A DNA stretch of 64,000 nt from Sphaerisporangium siamense (GTDB lineage: Bacteria; Actinomycetota; Actinomycetes; Streptosporangiales; Streptosporangiaceae), in the NCBI RefSeq assembly GCF_014205275.1, contig NZ_JACHND010000001.1, positions 1-64,000 of the forward strand. The letters are read 5' to 3'. Under the pieces are notes generated by a model. That model had not been told where the DNA came from. It saw only the letters and a list, made by a program, of their open reading frames with translations, and made no database searches. Position 1 is the stretch's first letter. Every line of letters starts with the position of its first letter. Below, piece by piece: positions 14,513 to 20,090 of this stretch. The translations under genes were made by a program, and so were the position numbers.

Positions 14513-16162
14513 TCACTGCGCGTGGATGTAGATGGTGTCGAAGACCTCCGCGAGCTTGGTGAGGTCCTGCGTGACGCCGCGCTCGGGGTCGCCGGCGTCG
14601 AAGGTCACCGCCATCCTGCCGAGCCCCTTACGGGCCTTCAGGGCCTTCCAGAGGGTGTTGTCCTTGAGCCCCTCGTCGAGGATGCGCCACACCGCGCCGT
14701 CCCAGTCCTGCCGGTGGGTCCACAGCATGACGGTCTGCACGCCCGCCTGCAGGGGCAGGTCGACGCGCAGCTTGGCCGCGGCCTCGGCCTGGGCGGCGGT
14801 GAGGTTGGTCGGGCCGCTGTGGGCCAGGCCGACCTCGCGGGCGCCGATGTGCACGCGGGTGTCCCAGCCGCGGGCCCGCACGGCGATCCACTGGTTGCGC
14901 AGCGCCTTGTCCGGTGTGACCTTCCACTTGGAGTACTCGCTGGCGAACAGGCCGCTGGAGAGGTTGACGTGGTCCACGTCGCCGGTGAGCACGTACTTCT
15001 CGACGTTGGCGCGGGTGATCAGCGGGTACTTGGTGCGCAGCGCCGCCTGGCACGGCTCGGAGGCGCCGCAGCCGAGCTCGGGGACCACCACGTCCACGGC
15101 GAGCTGCTTGCCCGCCGGCATCGCGGCGCGCAGGGCCGTCGAGGACTCCTTGACGAACTTGCGGATGTCGTCGGCGGACTTGAAGCCCCAGTAGCCGAGG
15201 TCCTGGGCGAACTTGACGCCCACGACGCCGGGCCTGCTCGCCTGCGCGGCCAGCGAGGCGACGGCGGCGTCGAACTGCTCCTTGCCCGCCGTCCACGCCG
15301 GGGCCAGCTCGCTCTCGACCCACACGCGCATGCCGAGCTTGACGGCCGCGGCGGCGGCCTTGCCGGTGGCGTCGTTCGGCGGCGTGAGGGTCTGCTTGTC
15401 CGTGGTCGTGGTGCGCGGCGCGGTGGAGGCGTCGGGGCGCGGGTCGGCCTGGCCGGTCGGCTCGGGGTCGGCGGGCGCGGACGGCTCGGCGGACGTCTCG
15501 TTCTCGGGCAGGGCGTTGGTCTGGTTCTCGGTCTGGTTCTGGGTCTCGTCCGTCGACAGCGGCTGTCCCTCGTCGGGGCCGGTGGAGTTCTCGACGACGG
15601 GCGCCTGGTTCTCCTCGACGGGGGCGCCGTTCACGTCGTTGCCCGCTTGCGGGCTCGACGACGGGCCGGGCGTGCCGTTCTGCTTGTCGGAGGTCGTGCT
15701 GCCCTCACCGCGCGTGCAGTCGTACTCGCCGCCGAGACACGCCTTGGACGGAGGGTTGGTGGGGTTGCCGTCGGTGTCCTTGCAGACGTACTTGCCGACG
15801 CTCTGGTCGTACTTGCACAGGACCTGGTCCTTGTCGGCGCAGTCCTGCATGCCGGGACCCTTGTTGTTCTTGTCCTTGCAGAACAGCACCGGGCCGGGGA
15901 AGGGGACCGCCTCCTCCAGCTTCTTGTTCCCGTCCTGGGTCCAGAAGCGGACGACGTCGAGCGCGTCCCGCGGGGTCTCGGCCATCCAGGAGCAGTACAT
16001 GTACTCGGGGGTGCCGGTGCCGAGGATCTCGTCGCACTGGTTGTTCACGCCCTCGGGCGTGGACGGCGCGGCGAGGGCCATGCCGGTGGGGATGCCTATG
16101 GTCAGCGTGAGAAGCACCGCGACGAGCGCGATGATCCATTCGCGTTTGCGAAGCCGGGGCAT
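14513..16162 (-). CDS. Large secreted protein of unknown function with a possible TIM-barrel domain
   Basis: This 549-residue protein has an N-terminal signal/anchor helix (about residues 7-31, ending in an Ala-rich site). A Cys-rich segment follows at about 35-150, with roughly eight Cys (NNQCDEI, YMYCSW, LFCKDKNNK, KACLGGEYDC). Next is a long Asn/Gln/Glu/Pro-rich linker (QNQTENQTNALPENETSAE), then a roughly 280-residue C-terminal domain (GMRVWVESELAPAW, GVVGVKFAQDLGYWGF, LAVDVVVPELGC, TVMLWTHRQDW). The alternating strand/helix pattern suggests a glycosidase-like TIM barrel, but I cannot name a family. The next gene upstream on the same strand is the sigma-BACON chimera 32 nt away, so the two may share an operon. 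Confidence 0.6.
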   Translation of the reverse strand: MPRLRKREWIIALVAVLLTLTIGIPTGMALAAPSTPEGVNNQCDEILGTGTPEYMYCSWMAETPRDALDVVRFWTQDGNKKLEEAVPFPGPVLFCKDKNNKGPGMQDCADKDQVLCKYDQSVGKYVCKDTDGNPTNPPSKACLGGEYDCTRGEGSTTSDKQNGTPGPSSSPQAGNDVNGAPVEENQAPVVENSTGPDEGQPLSTDETQNQTENQTNALPENETSAEPSAPADPEPTGQADPRPDASTAPRTTTTDKQTLTPPNDATGKAAAAAVKLGMRVWVESELAPAWTAGKEQFDAAVASLAAQASRPGVVGVKFAQDLGYWGFKSADDIRKFVKESSTALRAAMPAGKQLAVDVVVPELGCGASEPCQAALRTKYPLITRANVEKYVLTGDVDHVNLSSGLFASEYSKWKVTPDKALRNQWIAVRARGWDTRVHIGAREVGLAHSGPTNLTAAQAEAAAKLRVDLPLQAGVQTVMLWTHRQDWDGAVWRILDEGLKDNTLWKALKARKGLGRMAVTFDAGDPERGVTQDLTKLAEVFDTIYIHAQ

Positions 16163-16194: not shown

Positions 16195-17925
16195 CTAGCG
16201 GGGGACGGGGCAGGGCTTCACGTAGGTGATCGTCACGCCGACGCTTCCGGAGCCCGCGGTGCCCTTGTTGTCACCGGTCCAGGAGATGGACAGCGACGTG
16301 CTGAGCGGCTTTCCGCAGTTCTCCTCGCCCGTTCCCGAGTTGACGGAGAACTGGATCGTCGTGCTCTCGCCGTCGGCGACACGTCCGCTGCCCGGCGAGA
16401 CGTTGACCATCGTCCCCGCGGCCGTCCAGTTGATCGAGCCGCGCTGCGACCGCACGGAGACCGAACCCTGGCGGGTGGTGCCCACGTCCACCGAGCCGGT
16501 GGAGGCGGCGAACTGCGGAGGGGGCGGTGGCGGGGGCGGAGGCGGCGGAGGGGGCGGCTGGGAGGACTGCTTGGCCTGCGGCTGGGAGGACTGCTTGGGG
16601 GCCGAGGTGGGCCGTGAGGTCTGTTTCGGCGGGGGCGGCGGGCCGTTCGGGCCGTCCGCCGACGGCGGGTCCGTGCGCCGGGGCTTGGCCGACGGGCTCG
16701 CGGAGGGGCGGGAGCTGCTCGACGGCGGCGAGGCCATGGGCGCCGAGGACGTCGGCAGCGTCACGCCGGGCTGCCGGACGCCGCCGGTGCCGGTCGGCGC
16801 GGCGGAGCCCACCGGCGTGCCCCCGGTGGCCACGGGCGGCGGAGGAGGGGAGTCCACGAGTGCCGGCAGCGATTCGCCCGGCGAGACGACGATCGTGCCG
16901 CCCGCCGCCTCCACGTCGACCGGCGCGGTGCCGCTGGGCGCGAAGATCAGCGACCAGATCGCGCCCGCGGAGACGACCGAGGCGAGGGTGACGAGCGCGA
17001 CGCGTCCCCAGCGGATGCGGCTCTCGGGGTCGTCGGCGTCGGGGTCGGGCTCCCAGAACTCGGGCTGGGACGCGGCGGCCTCCGCCTTCTTCTCGGGCGT
17101 GAACCCCTCTTCGACGGTGAGCGGGGCCTCGGGAGGGGGCGGGTCCTCCAGGGCGTCGGGCTGCACGGGGAAGCCGTCGGGGTGCCAGCTCTCGGTGCGG
17201 GTCTCGGCGGCGGTGAAGGAGGCGTCGGCGCCGGAGAAGAGCCGTTCCATGGGGGCCGGGCTGGCGAGGATGGGCATGCGCGTCATCAGTGCCGTGATCG
17301 TCACCCCGGCCTTGGCGGCCCCGCAGTCCTTGCAGGAGCGGATGTGCCGGGTGATGTGGGCGCGCAGCAGCCGCGTCGGCGACGCGGCCCACGACTTCAC
17401 GAGGCCGGGCAGCACCGAGCAGCGCGGGTCGGCGCTGCGCGCGTCCACGACGGCGGCCAGCCACTGCTCGGCGTTCTTCCGGCCCGTGCGGGCCGCGGAC
17501 TCCACGGCGTCGACCGAGATGTCCAGAACCCTGGCGACCTCGTCGGACTTGAGGCCGTGCCGCAGGGTCAGGTCGAGGATCTCGCGTTCGCGCGACTCCA
17601 GGCAGGCGAGCACCTCGACGCCCAGTTCCGGCGAGCCGCCACGCCCCTGGCGGGCGTAGGAGCCGGTGTGGGTCACGCCGGCGAGCCGGGACTGGCACTC
17701 CGCCCGGGCCAGGGAGTACATCCAGGCGCGCAGGCGGGTCGCGTCGTACAGGCGGTCGGTGTGGGCGACGGCCCCGTGCAGGGCTCCGACCGTCGCCGAA
17801 AGAGCGTCGTCGTCGTCCAGCAGGGATTGGCAGTAGTCGTAGAGATGATCTCCGTACTCGCGGCACAACCGCTCCAGAGCGGCGGGATCATCCCTCCTCA
17901 GCACGGGACTCAGCTCTCCTGACAT
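16195..17925 (-). CDS. Membrane-tethered sigma-factor-like protein with zinc motif and extracellular BACON-like domain
   Basis: This 576-residue chimera has five parts: (1) a sigma region-2-like segment (about 14-82, LERLCREYGDHLYDYCQSLL); (2) a region-4-like helix-turn-helix (about 110-158, SREREILDLTLRHGLKSDEV); (3) an anti-sigma-type zinc motif H194-x3-C198-x2-C201; (4) one membrane helix (about 306-328); and (5) a Ser/Pro spacer with a run of 14 prolines and a C-terminal BACON/Ig-like beta domain (GSVDVGTTRQGSVSV, CGKPLSTSLSISW). ECF families with long C-terminal extensions including carbohydrate-binding-like domains are known in actinobacteria. The ATG at 17925 lacks a clear ribosome site. 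A divergent proline-rich membrane protein starts about 210 nt away. Surface sensing linked to transcription is inference. Confidence 0.75.
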   Translation of the reverse strand: MSGELSPVLRRDDPAALERLCREYGDHLYDYCQSLLDDDDALSATVGALHGAVAHTDRLYDATRLRAWMYSLARAECQSRLAGVTHTGSYARQGRGGSPELGVEVLACLESREREILDLTLRHGLKSDEVARVLDISVDAVESAARTGRKNAEQWLAAVVDARSADPRCSVLPGLVKSWAASPTRLLRAHITRHIRSCKDCGAAKAGVTITALMTRMPILASPAPMERLFSGADASFTAAETRTESWHPDGFPVQPDALEDPPPPEAPLTVEEGFTPEKKAEAAASQPEFWEPDPDADDPESRIRWGRVALVTLASVVSAGAIWSLIFAPSGTAPVDVEAAGGTIVVSPGESLPALVDSPPPPPVATGGTPVGSAAPTGTGGVRQPGVTLPTSSAPMASPPSSSSRPSASPSAKPRRTDPPSADGPNGPPPPPKQTSRPTSAPKQSSQPQAKQSSQPPPPPPPPPPPPPPQFAASTGSVDVGTTRQGSVSVRSQRGSINWTAAGTMVNVSPGSGRVADGESTTIQFSVNSGTGEENCGKPLSTSLSISWTGDNKGTAGSGSVGVTITYVKPCPVPR

Positions 17926-18137
17926 GGTTGCAAATGATAAATCTGGTACCGGCAAAGCAGTCAGAAATATACGGGAGGATGCCTCAGCTTCTGATATCAC
18001 TTTTGTTACATAACAAACTTCTATACTCTGTTGACTGTCTTGACGTCTTAACCTCCCCATGAATGCACATGTAGTGACGAATCACCGCATTGTGCAAGAG
18101 AAGCCGACGCCCACCCCGCCCCGGAGACGAGAGCACC

Positions 18138-18829: not shown

Positions 18830-19594
18830 TCAGCGGAGCGACTCGGCGACGCGGCGGGCGCGGTCGAGCTCCGCGGGGCCTTCGAGGCGGTAGGCGACCC
18901 CGCCGCGCCGCCAGATCAGCGTGGGGGCGGCGGCGCGGGGCAGCGTGCGGGTCGAGCCGTCGCCGGGCAGGTACGTCACCTGGTGCGGCCCGCTGATCCA
19001 CCAGCCCTCGGCCGTGCCCACCACGACCTCCTCGGGGAACGGCGCGCCGAGGTCCTTGCGCCACATGGGGGTCAGGACGCCGTCGTAGGCGTCCAGCCGC
19101 ACGCCGGGCCAGAACAGCGACACCACGCGGCCCCCGTCGCTCACCCGCACGTCCCGCGTCTCGCCGAGCGCGGCGGGGACGGCGAACGGCAACCGCACCA
19201 GGCGGCGGGCCTCGTCGAGGGTCACCCTCCGCTCGCCGGGCAGCGGGCTCGGGACCCCGCGGGGCGGCGGAGGCGGCTCCTCGCCGATGTGCGCCTCGAT
19301 GCCCGCGAAGCGCAGGACGGCTCCCACGGCGGCCTGCCCCTGCGGGGTGAGCCCGACGAGCAGGGCGACGACCGCCGCCACGCCCGCGGCCCCCCATCGC
19401 CACGTCCGCCGCCGCCCCGGACGCTCCGGCCGGCGCGGTTTGAGCGAACCGGCACGCTCCGGCCCCTCCAGGCGTGCCCGCACGGCCCGCGCCACGTCGG
19501 CGGGCGGCGGCTCGGGAACGCGGAGGGCCTCGCCGAGCGCGCGCAGCTCGGCCTCCATCTCCTCAGCGCCGCCGGCGTCGTCAGGAGAGTTCAT
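18830..19594 (-). CDS. Putative anti-sigma factor / sigma-associated membrane protein
   Basis: This 254-residue protein has a cytoplasmic N-terminus with MEAELRALGEALRVPEPPPA and VARAVRARLEG, a pattern common in anti-sigma regulators of ECF factors. One membrane helix follows (about 67-83), then an extracytoplasmic domain (GERRVTLDEARRLV, FPEEVVVGTAEGWWISG, HQVTYLPG). It overlaps the upstream sigma gene by 14 nt, so expression is coupled. No zinc-binding HxxxCxxC is present. It is a second, unrelated-looking sigma/anti-sigma pair in this window. Confidence 0.7.
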   Translation of the reverse strand: MNSPDDAGGAEEMEAELRALGEALRVPEPPPADVARAVRARLEGPERAGSLKPRRPERPGRRRTWRWGAAGVAAVVALLVGLTPQGQAAVGAVLRFAGIEAHIGEEPPPPPRGVPSPLPGERRVTLDEARRLVRLPFAVPAALGETRDVRVSDGGRVVSLFWPGVRLDAYDGVLTPMWRKDLGAPFPEEVVVGTAEGWWISGPHQVTYLPGDGSTRTLPRAAAPTLIWRRGGVAYRLEGPAELDRARRVAESLR

Positions 19595-20090
19595 GGCCCA
19601 CCTCCTTCCGCAGCCTGGCGAGCCCCCGGAACGTGCGGGACTTCACCGAACCGAGCGGCCAGCCGAGCACCTCGGCGGTCTCGGCCTCGGACAACTGCAG
19701 GAAATACCTGCAGACCACCGCCTGCCGTTCCCGCTCGGGCAGCGCCCGCACGGCCTCCAGCAGCCGGGCGCGCCGGTCGCCCGCGATGGCGACCCCCTCG
19801 GGGTCGTCGGGCACCCGGGTCTCCGGCTCGACGCCGATCTTGAGCACCAGGTCGTTCCTGCGTCCGCGCGAGCGGGTGAGATCGTGGGTCAGGTTGGCGA
19901 CGATCCTGAGCAGCCACGGCTTGAACGCGGCATCCCTCCGGAAGCCGGACAAATACCGAAATGCTCTGACGAAGGCCTCCTGGACCACGTCCTCGGCCTC
20001 GTCACCCGCGCCGAGCAGCGCGGCCGTACGGTGGGCCACCGCACTGTAGCGCGTGACCAGCACCTCATAGGCGGCGAGGTCCCCGGCCAA
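19581..20090 (-). CDS. ECF RNA polymerase sigma factor
   Basis: This 169-residue group 4 sigma factor has region 2 (YEVLVTRYSAVAHRTAALLG, EDVVQEAFVRAFRYLSGF), KPWLLRIVANL, and region 4 with PERERQAVVCRYFLQLSEAE and the helix-turn-helix AEVLGWPLGSVKSRTFRGL. The only start codon found in the open frame is TTG 20090, which falls inside the usual SLAGD motif and has a weak ribosome site. The in-frame upstream codons back to a TGA still look sigma-like (SEELPTDDDEAITRS), so the true start may be a non-standard codon. It is coupled to the downstream membrane protein. Confidence 0.85.
   Translation of the reverse strand: MAGDLAAYEVLVTRYSAVAHRTAALLGAGDEAEDVVQEAFVRAFRYLSGFRRDAAFKPWLLRIVANLTHDLTRSRGRRNDLVLKIGVEPETRVPDDPEGVAIAGDRRARLLEAVRALPERERQAVVCRYFLQLSEAETAEVLGWPLGSVKSRTFRGLARLRKEVGHELS

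Follow-up and report, generated by a model that had tools for sequence, protein, structure and literature searches.

A membrane-spanning protein of Sphaerisporangium siamense with a sigma-derived domain that may have been repurposed for protein binding

Introduction

When a sigma factor is fused to its own anti-sigma segment and anchored in the membrane, is it still a sigma factor? This question is raised by a gene in the first 64,000 nucleotides of contig NZ_JACHND010000001.1 of Sphaerisporangium siamense (hereafter the window; the product is called the window protein). A sequence-only reading of this DNA had described a sigma-like part, a zinc anti-sigma motif, a membrane helix and a BACON-like outside domain in one chain, and had proposed that a wall or glycan ligand outside might release or reposition the tethered sigma domain. 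Neither this architecture nor the idea of release by proteolysis is new, as both are already in print for ECF52 and SCO4117. The passages of PMC5826349 used here outline ECF52 as a sigma part followed by a zinc finger, a membrane helix, a proline-rich stretch and a carbohydrate-binding module, and propose, citing Pinto and Mascher 2016, that either proteolysis or a change of conformation sets the sigma part free. The same passages report that transcription is altered upon loss of SCO4117, the ECF52 protein of Streptomyces coelicolor, and take the fused ECFs as working sigma factors. In the portion of a review that bears on ECF48, ECF52 and ECF53, the sigma part is likewise freed by proteolysis or conformational change (PMC8999054), and some ECF52 and ECF53 proteins are predicted, in the portion of PMC10766802 used here, to carry glycosyl hydrolase and carbohydrate-binding domains. 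Within the limits of the searches made, nothing was found in the literature on ECF sigma factors in Sphaerisporangium and, judged by titles and abstracts, the combination of a BACON domain with a sigma factor led to work on Bacteroidetes alone.

Architecture of the window protein

The gene encodes 576 amino acids (P0001) on the minus strand of the window (16195..17925, with the ATG at 17925), as established by the open reading frame call and by alignment with seven orthologues. The Sphaerisporangium orthologues used are L001-L007, which are 84-93 percent identical to the window protein over residues 1-237, and L073. The layout that had been read from the letters was borne out. All features being on the minus strand, the chain begins with a sigma-2-like segment (residues 13-80, 17686..17889) and a sigma-4-like segment (residues 100-162, 17440..17628), the latter marked by Pfam PF08281. 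Next come a putative zinc anti-sigma-type motif, C169-x24-H194-x3-C198-x2-C201 (17323..17421), which was recognized in the alignment, and the peptide WHPDGFPVQ (residues 247-255, 17161..17187), which holds a conserved G-F-P motif and lies N-terminal to a single membrane helix (residues 309-327, 16945..17001), where the hydrophobic 19-mer starting at residue 309 scores best. Arginines flank the helix on its N side, and the topology is predicted to be N-in, C-out. The remainder consists of a linker rich in proline and serine (residues 355-470, 16516..16863), which closes with 14 prolines (457-470), the longest proline run in the protein, and an Ig-like (BACON-like) domain (residues 471-576, 16198..16515). 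Cysteines occur at positions 21, 32, 77, 108, 169, 198, 201, 537 and 572. The evidence thus supported an ECF-derived chain that carries, within one gene product, a zinc anti-sigma-type segment of its own, a single membrane helix and, at the C-terminus, an Ig-like domain.

Alignment of the window protein with L001-L007 showed that residues 10-165 are mostly invariant, as are C169, H194, C198, C201 and TESWHPDGFPVQPD, along with much of the segment N-terminal to the membrane helix. The proline linker and the outside domain are variable among the same sequences. A search of a phage collection gave no match.

The N-terminal part derives from a sigma factor

The sequence-only reading had claimed sigma regions 2 and 4, and our results support region 4 directly and region 2 less strongly than claimed. 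Region 4 of the window protein matched Pfam Sigma70_r4_2 (PF08281) above the cut-off, with an E-value of 1.9e-6, whereas Pfam Sigma70_r2 gave no match to the protein at E-values up to 10, and the gene is not among the 58 sites of its own genome that match Sigma70_r2 at E <= 0.001. Two NCBIfam sigma models placed their best stretch at residues 10-78 and 16-80, far under the cut-off; the whole-protein E-values were 1.6e-4 and 3.6e-4 for a 236-residue piece, with no single stretch passing, and 0.0022 and 0.0045 for the full protein.

Stronger evidence came from a family profile (A2) built from 30 sequences, 29 of them relatives that are 25-38 percent identical to the window protein. Searched against the PDB, this profile matched ECF sigma factors across regions 2 and 4, with SigW as the best match (E 3.8e-15). 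Of the 38 distinct sequences matched at E <= 0.01, 35 were named as sigma factors; the others were two response regulator proteins and a PhyR sigma-like domain. When the 30 sequences were themselves searched with Pfam (E <= 0.01), PF08281 was found in 22 and region 2 in 19. Similarity to sigma-70 is thus present within residues 1-160, a chance likeness is ruled out by the PF08281 match together with the profile matches to sigma factors in the PDB, and we consider the window protein sigma-derived by homology.

Structure prediction was less informative for this part. In AF2 runs on the eight Sphaerisporangium sequences and, a second time, on residues 1-237, the sigma-2 part was of low confidence, with block means of about 40-60; in the second of these runs the block means reached 64-91 across residues 101-210 and stayed below 50 across residues 1-100. 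In Foldseek searches with the cytoplasmic model, stretches of 45-51 columns aligned locally with sigma region 4 at an rmsd of 0.6-1.0 and a probability of 1.00, with E > 1; the best E-value of any match was 0.085, with nothing at 0.001.

A family of fused proteins and its relatives

At E <= 1e-8, protein searches with the window protein found matches in 50 of 61 sampled genomes of its taxonomic family, its own genome included. From a subset of these matches, 60 places, three of which had a second protein, together with L001-L007 and L009, we assembled 71 proteins; exclusion of the fragments L099b, L130 and L124 left 68 family proteins, or 69 with the window protein. One further protein of the window's own genome (L043, C1 2979000-2984500) has a weak sigma likeness, lacks the zinc ligands and carries a hydrophobic helix at its extreme C-terminus.

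Three kinds of fused protein served for comparison. The ECF52-type set (L216-L221) was taken one per genome from 12 places with an NPCBM module in six genomes of a genus taken as Streptomyces, and its assignment to the SCO4117 type is by inference from domain order. ECF52 proteins are actinobacterial and have a zinc finger, a membrane helix and a proline-rich extension behind the sigma part, all of which is true of the window protein; they carry an NPCBM module, for which the window protein gave no match, its own outside domain being Ig-like. Group A, which comes from the genus taken as Streptomyces and for which the name ECF53, a group with WP_030276194.1 as its reference, is inferred, shares with the window protein the order of sigma part, zinc motif, helix, linker and variable outside domain. 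The third kind, the BACON-bearing type, was matched in each of 14 genomes searched (genus taken as Streptomyces), and 13 of its proteins were looked at (L163-L169, L174, L175, L183, L187, L158 and L159). Like the window protein, these have an altered region 2.2, a zinc motif, a G-F/Y-P motif and a membrane helix, but their BACON domain lies ahead of the proline stretch and the window domain lies behind it.

In a tree of 104 rows, from which eight of the 71 family proteins were omitted, a branch supported at 97/99 split the ECF52-type, group A and ordinary ECFs from the window family and the fused proteins L179-L182; the order of branching among the window family and L179-L182 had low support (56/79). 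The ECF52-type proteins formed a clade at 100/100 and group A a clade at 100/99. The window orthologues fell into a 12-row clade (99/99) together with L075, L076, L084, L104, L107, L074 and L009.

Loss of the clamp contacts in a segment under strong selection

The residues of sigma that contact the RNA polymerase clamp, which we take to be D403, Q406 and E407 of E. coli sigma70, were located in the window protein by alignment. It has S43, V46 and G47 where D, Q and E are expected, so that all three clamp-contact residues are lost. In the portion of PMC7406223 used here, ECF regions 2.1 and 2.2 bind the clamp helices, and anti-sigma helix 4 is reported to bind the clamp-facing surface of 2.1/2.2.

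How unusual this loss is was judged within the genome itself, from 23 other sigma-2 proteins: those of the 58 Sigma70_r2 sites with open frames of more than 300 residues, minus two family paralogues and the site at 5067015. Clamp positions in this set were assigned by residue offset; whichever register is used, none of the three residues is present in the window protein. The first position was D or E in 23/23, the second Q in 20/23 and the third D or E in 22/23, and none of the 23 was missing all three. One ordinary ECF within the window has G at the third position, and the two family paralogues of the genome read D/H/D (L041) and V/R/D (L042). The loss of all three residues in the window protein appears to be new.

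Across the window branch, by which we mean 16 rows (the 12-row tree clade plus L001, L002, L005 and L006), Q at the second and D or E at the third position occur in 0/16 each, and E at the first is kept in two (L075 and L107). Of the 52 zinc-bearing family rows outside the window group, 43 carry D at the third position, and 42 carry H or R at the second. The acid at the third position is also present in 9/9 BACON-bearing fusions and the canonical D-x-x-Q-E/D of region 2.2 in 12/12 group A proteins, and the ECF52-type proteins L216-L221 keep D and E there; the window protein has none of these. Q together with D or E is found in six fused proteins of other taxonomic families (L146, L148, L150, L151, L152 and L181). 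Family and fused outgroups appear to show a graded path from a canonical sigma to the state of the window protein, although the series from canonical to degenerate is not clean, since L179, L180 and L182, which lie outside the family, also lack Q at the second position.

The window protein has also lost most of the basic residues of its region-4 recognition helix. The mean net charge of this helix was +5.1 in ordinary ECFs (n=7), +3.2 in group A, +2.5 in L179-L182, +1.0 in both the family and the ECF52-type, +0.4 in the window orthologues (n=5), -0.6 in zinc-less relatives and -1.8 in the BACON-bearing type. Several points count against reading these marks as proof of a pseudo-sigma. Within the family, W68 is kept in 66 of 69 rows and R74 in 67 of 69. 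Moreover, the ECF52-type proteins have no Q at the second clamp position and Y in place of W68, and since they are also weakly charged, a protein with these features may still be a sigma factor. The G at the third position of an ordinary ECF in the window and the milder degeneration of the other family rows, most of which have D at that position, also speak for caution.

Selection was estimated for each segment as the mean dN/dS of the window gene versus eight other Sphaerisporangium sequences. The value was 0.077 for sigma-2, 0.084 for residues 81-99, 0.18 for sigma-4, 0.42 for the zinc segment, whose dS of 0.31 is low, 0.20 from there to the helix, 0.22 for the helix, 0.54 for the linker, 0.56 for the Ig domain and 0.34 overall. 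Sigma-2 is the most constrained segment of the protein, which suggests that it still does something. A pseudogene is ruled out by the overall and sigma-2 values and by eight orthologues without stops, of which L005 has a displaced start, its first seven residues being absent at the corresponding position.

Candidate zinc ligands and a conserved G-F-P motif

The proposed zinc anti-sigma segment stands as a motif and not as a profile match. Upstream of H194, C198 and C201, we identified C169 as a candidate fourth ligand. Class I zinc anti-sigma domains have a cysteine or a histidine as the upstream ligand, and the putative zinc motif of the window protein accordingly combines H-x3-C-x2-C with such a ligand. 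As in class I domains of the RsrA/ChrR/RsiW type, helices follow the motif; the difference is that in the window protein the segment is fused behind the sigma part in one chain. The four candidate ligands are invariant in 8/8 aligned Sphaerisporangium sequences, the window among them, and are kept in 62/62 of those family rows that have the zinc region (69 rows were aligned, and seven are without the region). Pfam zf-HC2, by contrast, did not match the window protein; it matched 10 of the 30 A2 sequences (E <= 0.01).

Between the zinc segment and the helix, the G-F-P motif is the outstanding feature of the family. The pattern G-F/Y/W-P was found within residues 201-345 in 63 of the 68 family proteins, versus 4.0 expected from 200 shuffles of the same segment, which rejects an origin from composition alone. 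One of the 63, L075, has its match past the membrane helix. The distance from the zinc histidine to the motif could be measured in 56 proteins and was 64 residues in 34, 57 residues in eight (all Sphaerisporangium) and between 27 and 142 in the rest; these motif and distance counts include many close kin and so are not independent.

The motif is present in 11/11 BACON-bearing fusions (genus taken as Streptomyces) and in two more, and absent from group A (0/15), the ECF52-type (0/6) and other fused proteins (0/4). Five further fused proteins from other taxonomic families comprised L146 with GWP, L152 with GYP, and L148, L150 and L151 with none. Exclusivity to the family was rejected, given the matches in L146 and L152 and GFP in L138. 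Identity of the window protein with ECF52 is ruled out by tree, motif and domain, and identity with group A, the ECF53 look-alike, by tree and motif. In a number of relatives (L120, L122, L123, L126-L128, L131, L176 and L177) the zinc segment is missing and GFP (GWP in L120) and the membrane helix are kept.

An Ig-like domain predicted to lie outside the membrane

AF2, run on the eight Sphaerisporangium sequences, gave a beta-sandwich of high confidence for roughly the C-terminal 105 residues, with low confidence elsewhere; ten-residue blocks over residues 461-570 had pLDDT values of 70-90, mostly >= 85. Foldseek matched the C-terminal domain to Ig-type folds at an E-value of 5e-6, and the best 50 of 98 matches (E <= 0.001) were mainly PapD-like chaperones and MSP. 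The Ig-like fold that had been proposed is thus upheld. Its assignment to BACON is not, as BACON_2 scored 12.7 bits against a cut-off of 25 in the window protein and matched one of eight orthologue domains even at E <= 1, and we use the BACON label tentatively. Among fused relatives, BACON_2 was above the cut-off in L167 and L180 (the latter outside the G-F-P family) and below it in L163. Homology of the window domain with the BACON domain of L163-L169 was not supported (hhalign probability 3.6 percent), and Pfam found no carbohydrate module in the window protein. C537 and C572 are invariant in 8/8 Sphaerisporangium sequences and would fit a disulfide outside the cell.

Outside domains differ elsewhere as well. 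Pfam scans of four group A proteins found CAP in two, a glycosyl hydrolase core in one and no domain in one. In the canonical sigma/zinc/membrane fusions L170-L173, L185, L191 and L197 the outside ends vary, with CAP or a glycosyl hydrolase core, and by eye some ends resemble an AbfB module and a pectate-lyase-like repeat.

What the sigma part may do

Our leading explanation, to which we give a probability of about 45%, is that the window protein is a membrane receptor whose protein-binding (pseudo-)sigma domain would have been repurposed from an ECF sigma/zinc anti-sigma fusion. Because the usual clamp contacts are gone in the window branch, the job of the sigma part would be to bind protein and not promoter. 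In such a receptor, the N-terminus would be cytoplasmic, and the proline stalk would hold the Ig domain off the membrane on the outside. An outside signal, which may be a ligand, stretch, or the loss of a partner, for example of the next gene's product, would change or cut the protein. The sigma part itself would most likely serve as a built-in plug by packing against the zinc anti-sigma segment of the same chain; upon the signal, that segment, or the one with the G-F-P motif, would become free to act on a different sigma factor or partner. Absence of a G-F-P motif ahead of the helix in three rows of the window branch itself (L075, L076 and L084) counts against this explanation.

In its wider form, which we put forward tentatively and at somewhat short of even odds, this explanation extends to a family, widespread among actinobacteria, whose fused ECF sigma was turned stepwise into the protein-binding part of a membrane receptor, with G-F-P as a new, near-invariant docking motif and the window protein near the end of the path. 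If so, the family would provide intermediate steps from a transcription factor to a receptor. Should the sigma part have ceased to be a sigma in the window branch, the proteins there that match sigma models carry the wrong name, as may others in the family. Since relatives from canonical to degenerate exist, clamp binding could be tested along the path, and the G-F-P motif offers a definite handle for finding partners.

The main rival is the ECF52 model, in which the fused anti-sigma tethers a working sigma factor to the membrane until, upon an outside signal, proteolysis or a conformational change sets it free. The architecture of the window protein fits both the ECF52 outline and the account of ECF48/52/53 in the portions of PMC5826349 and PMC8999054 used here, region 4 exceeds its Pfam cut-off, the family profile matches true ECF sigmas, and most family rows keep the acid at the third clamp position. 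IutY (ECF243), as described in the portion of PMC8999054 used here, likewise combines a sigma and a membrane anti-sigma in one chain and is activated by proteolysis; it serves Gram-negative iron signalling. For the window protein itself, release of a working sigma seems doubtful, because the clamp-contact residues and most of the basic residues of the recognition helix are lost; in addition, the Sigma70_r2 model misses the protein, and a scan for the sigma-70 promoter pattern found none. As the clamp contacts are lost yet sigma-2 is the segment under the strongest constraint, we rank a repurposed sigma slightly above a releasable one.

The gene neighbourhood

At 18830-20090, an ordinary ECF sigma gene precedes one whose product has a hydrophobic segment. 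This pair adjoins the orthologue of the window gene in seven of eight other Sphaerisporangium loci (not L003) and gives some room to a second rival, in which the exposed sigma-like part would act as an anti-anti-sigma mimic that titrates the anti-sigma of a separate ECF, for example that of this pair. PhyR, whose sigma-like domain binds protein and not a promoter, provides the precedent, and our leading explanation proposes the same role for the sigma part of the window protein. Unlike the window protein, PhyR lacks a membrane helix and includes a receiver domain, which was not among the Pfam matches of the window protein. The PhyR sigma-2 model did match three of the 30 A2 sequences weakly (best E 8.9e-4), but such matches reflect common sigma ancestry. 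Furthermore, this neighbourhood was seen in Sphaerisporangium only, the protein of 18830-19594 has no Pfam match and no functional tie between the two systems is apparent, and we regard titration of this kind as unlikely.

On the other side, 32 bases from the window gene, lies a downstream gene for 549 amino acids (14513..16162, minus strand), which adjoins the orthologue in 8/8 other Sphaerisporangium loci (for L005, as far as the contig reaches) and was found in none of the other loci searched (E <= 1e-6). Its product had no Pfam or PDB match; by eye, it has a hydrophobic segment near the N-terminus, a part rich in cysteine, a linker rich in proline and a long domain at the C-terminus. That the sigma part is a relic selected for folding or anchoring only, the protein acting through its outside domain and this neighbour's product, would agree with the constancy of the neighbour and the fast change of the outside part (dN/dS 0.56), but is very improbable given that the strongest selection is on the cytoplasmic sigma part and that genera with different outside domains retain the G-F-P motif.

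Upstream of the start codon, within a conserved AT-rich leader, we found the 16-base palindrome TTTGTTACATAACAAA (18002..18017), which is the sole copy in the 8.5-Mb genome at <= 1 mismatch. In nine aligned sequences it is exact in four, the window included, and differs by one base in three, by two bases in one and by four bases in one. It looks like a putative operator for a very specific regulator.

Finally, at about 4500-5900 of L008 (Sphaerisporangium album scaffold39), broken remnants of the window gene and of its downstream neighbour lie adjacent to one another, with changing frames, which suggests that the two genes may once have been duplicated as a pair.
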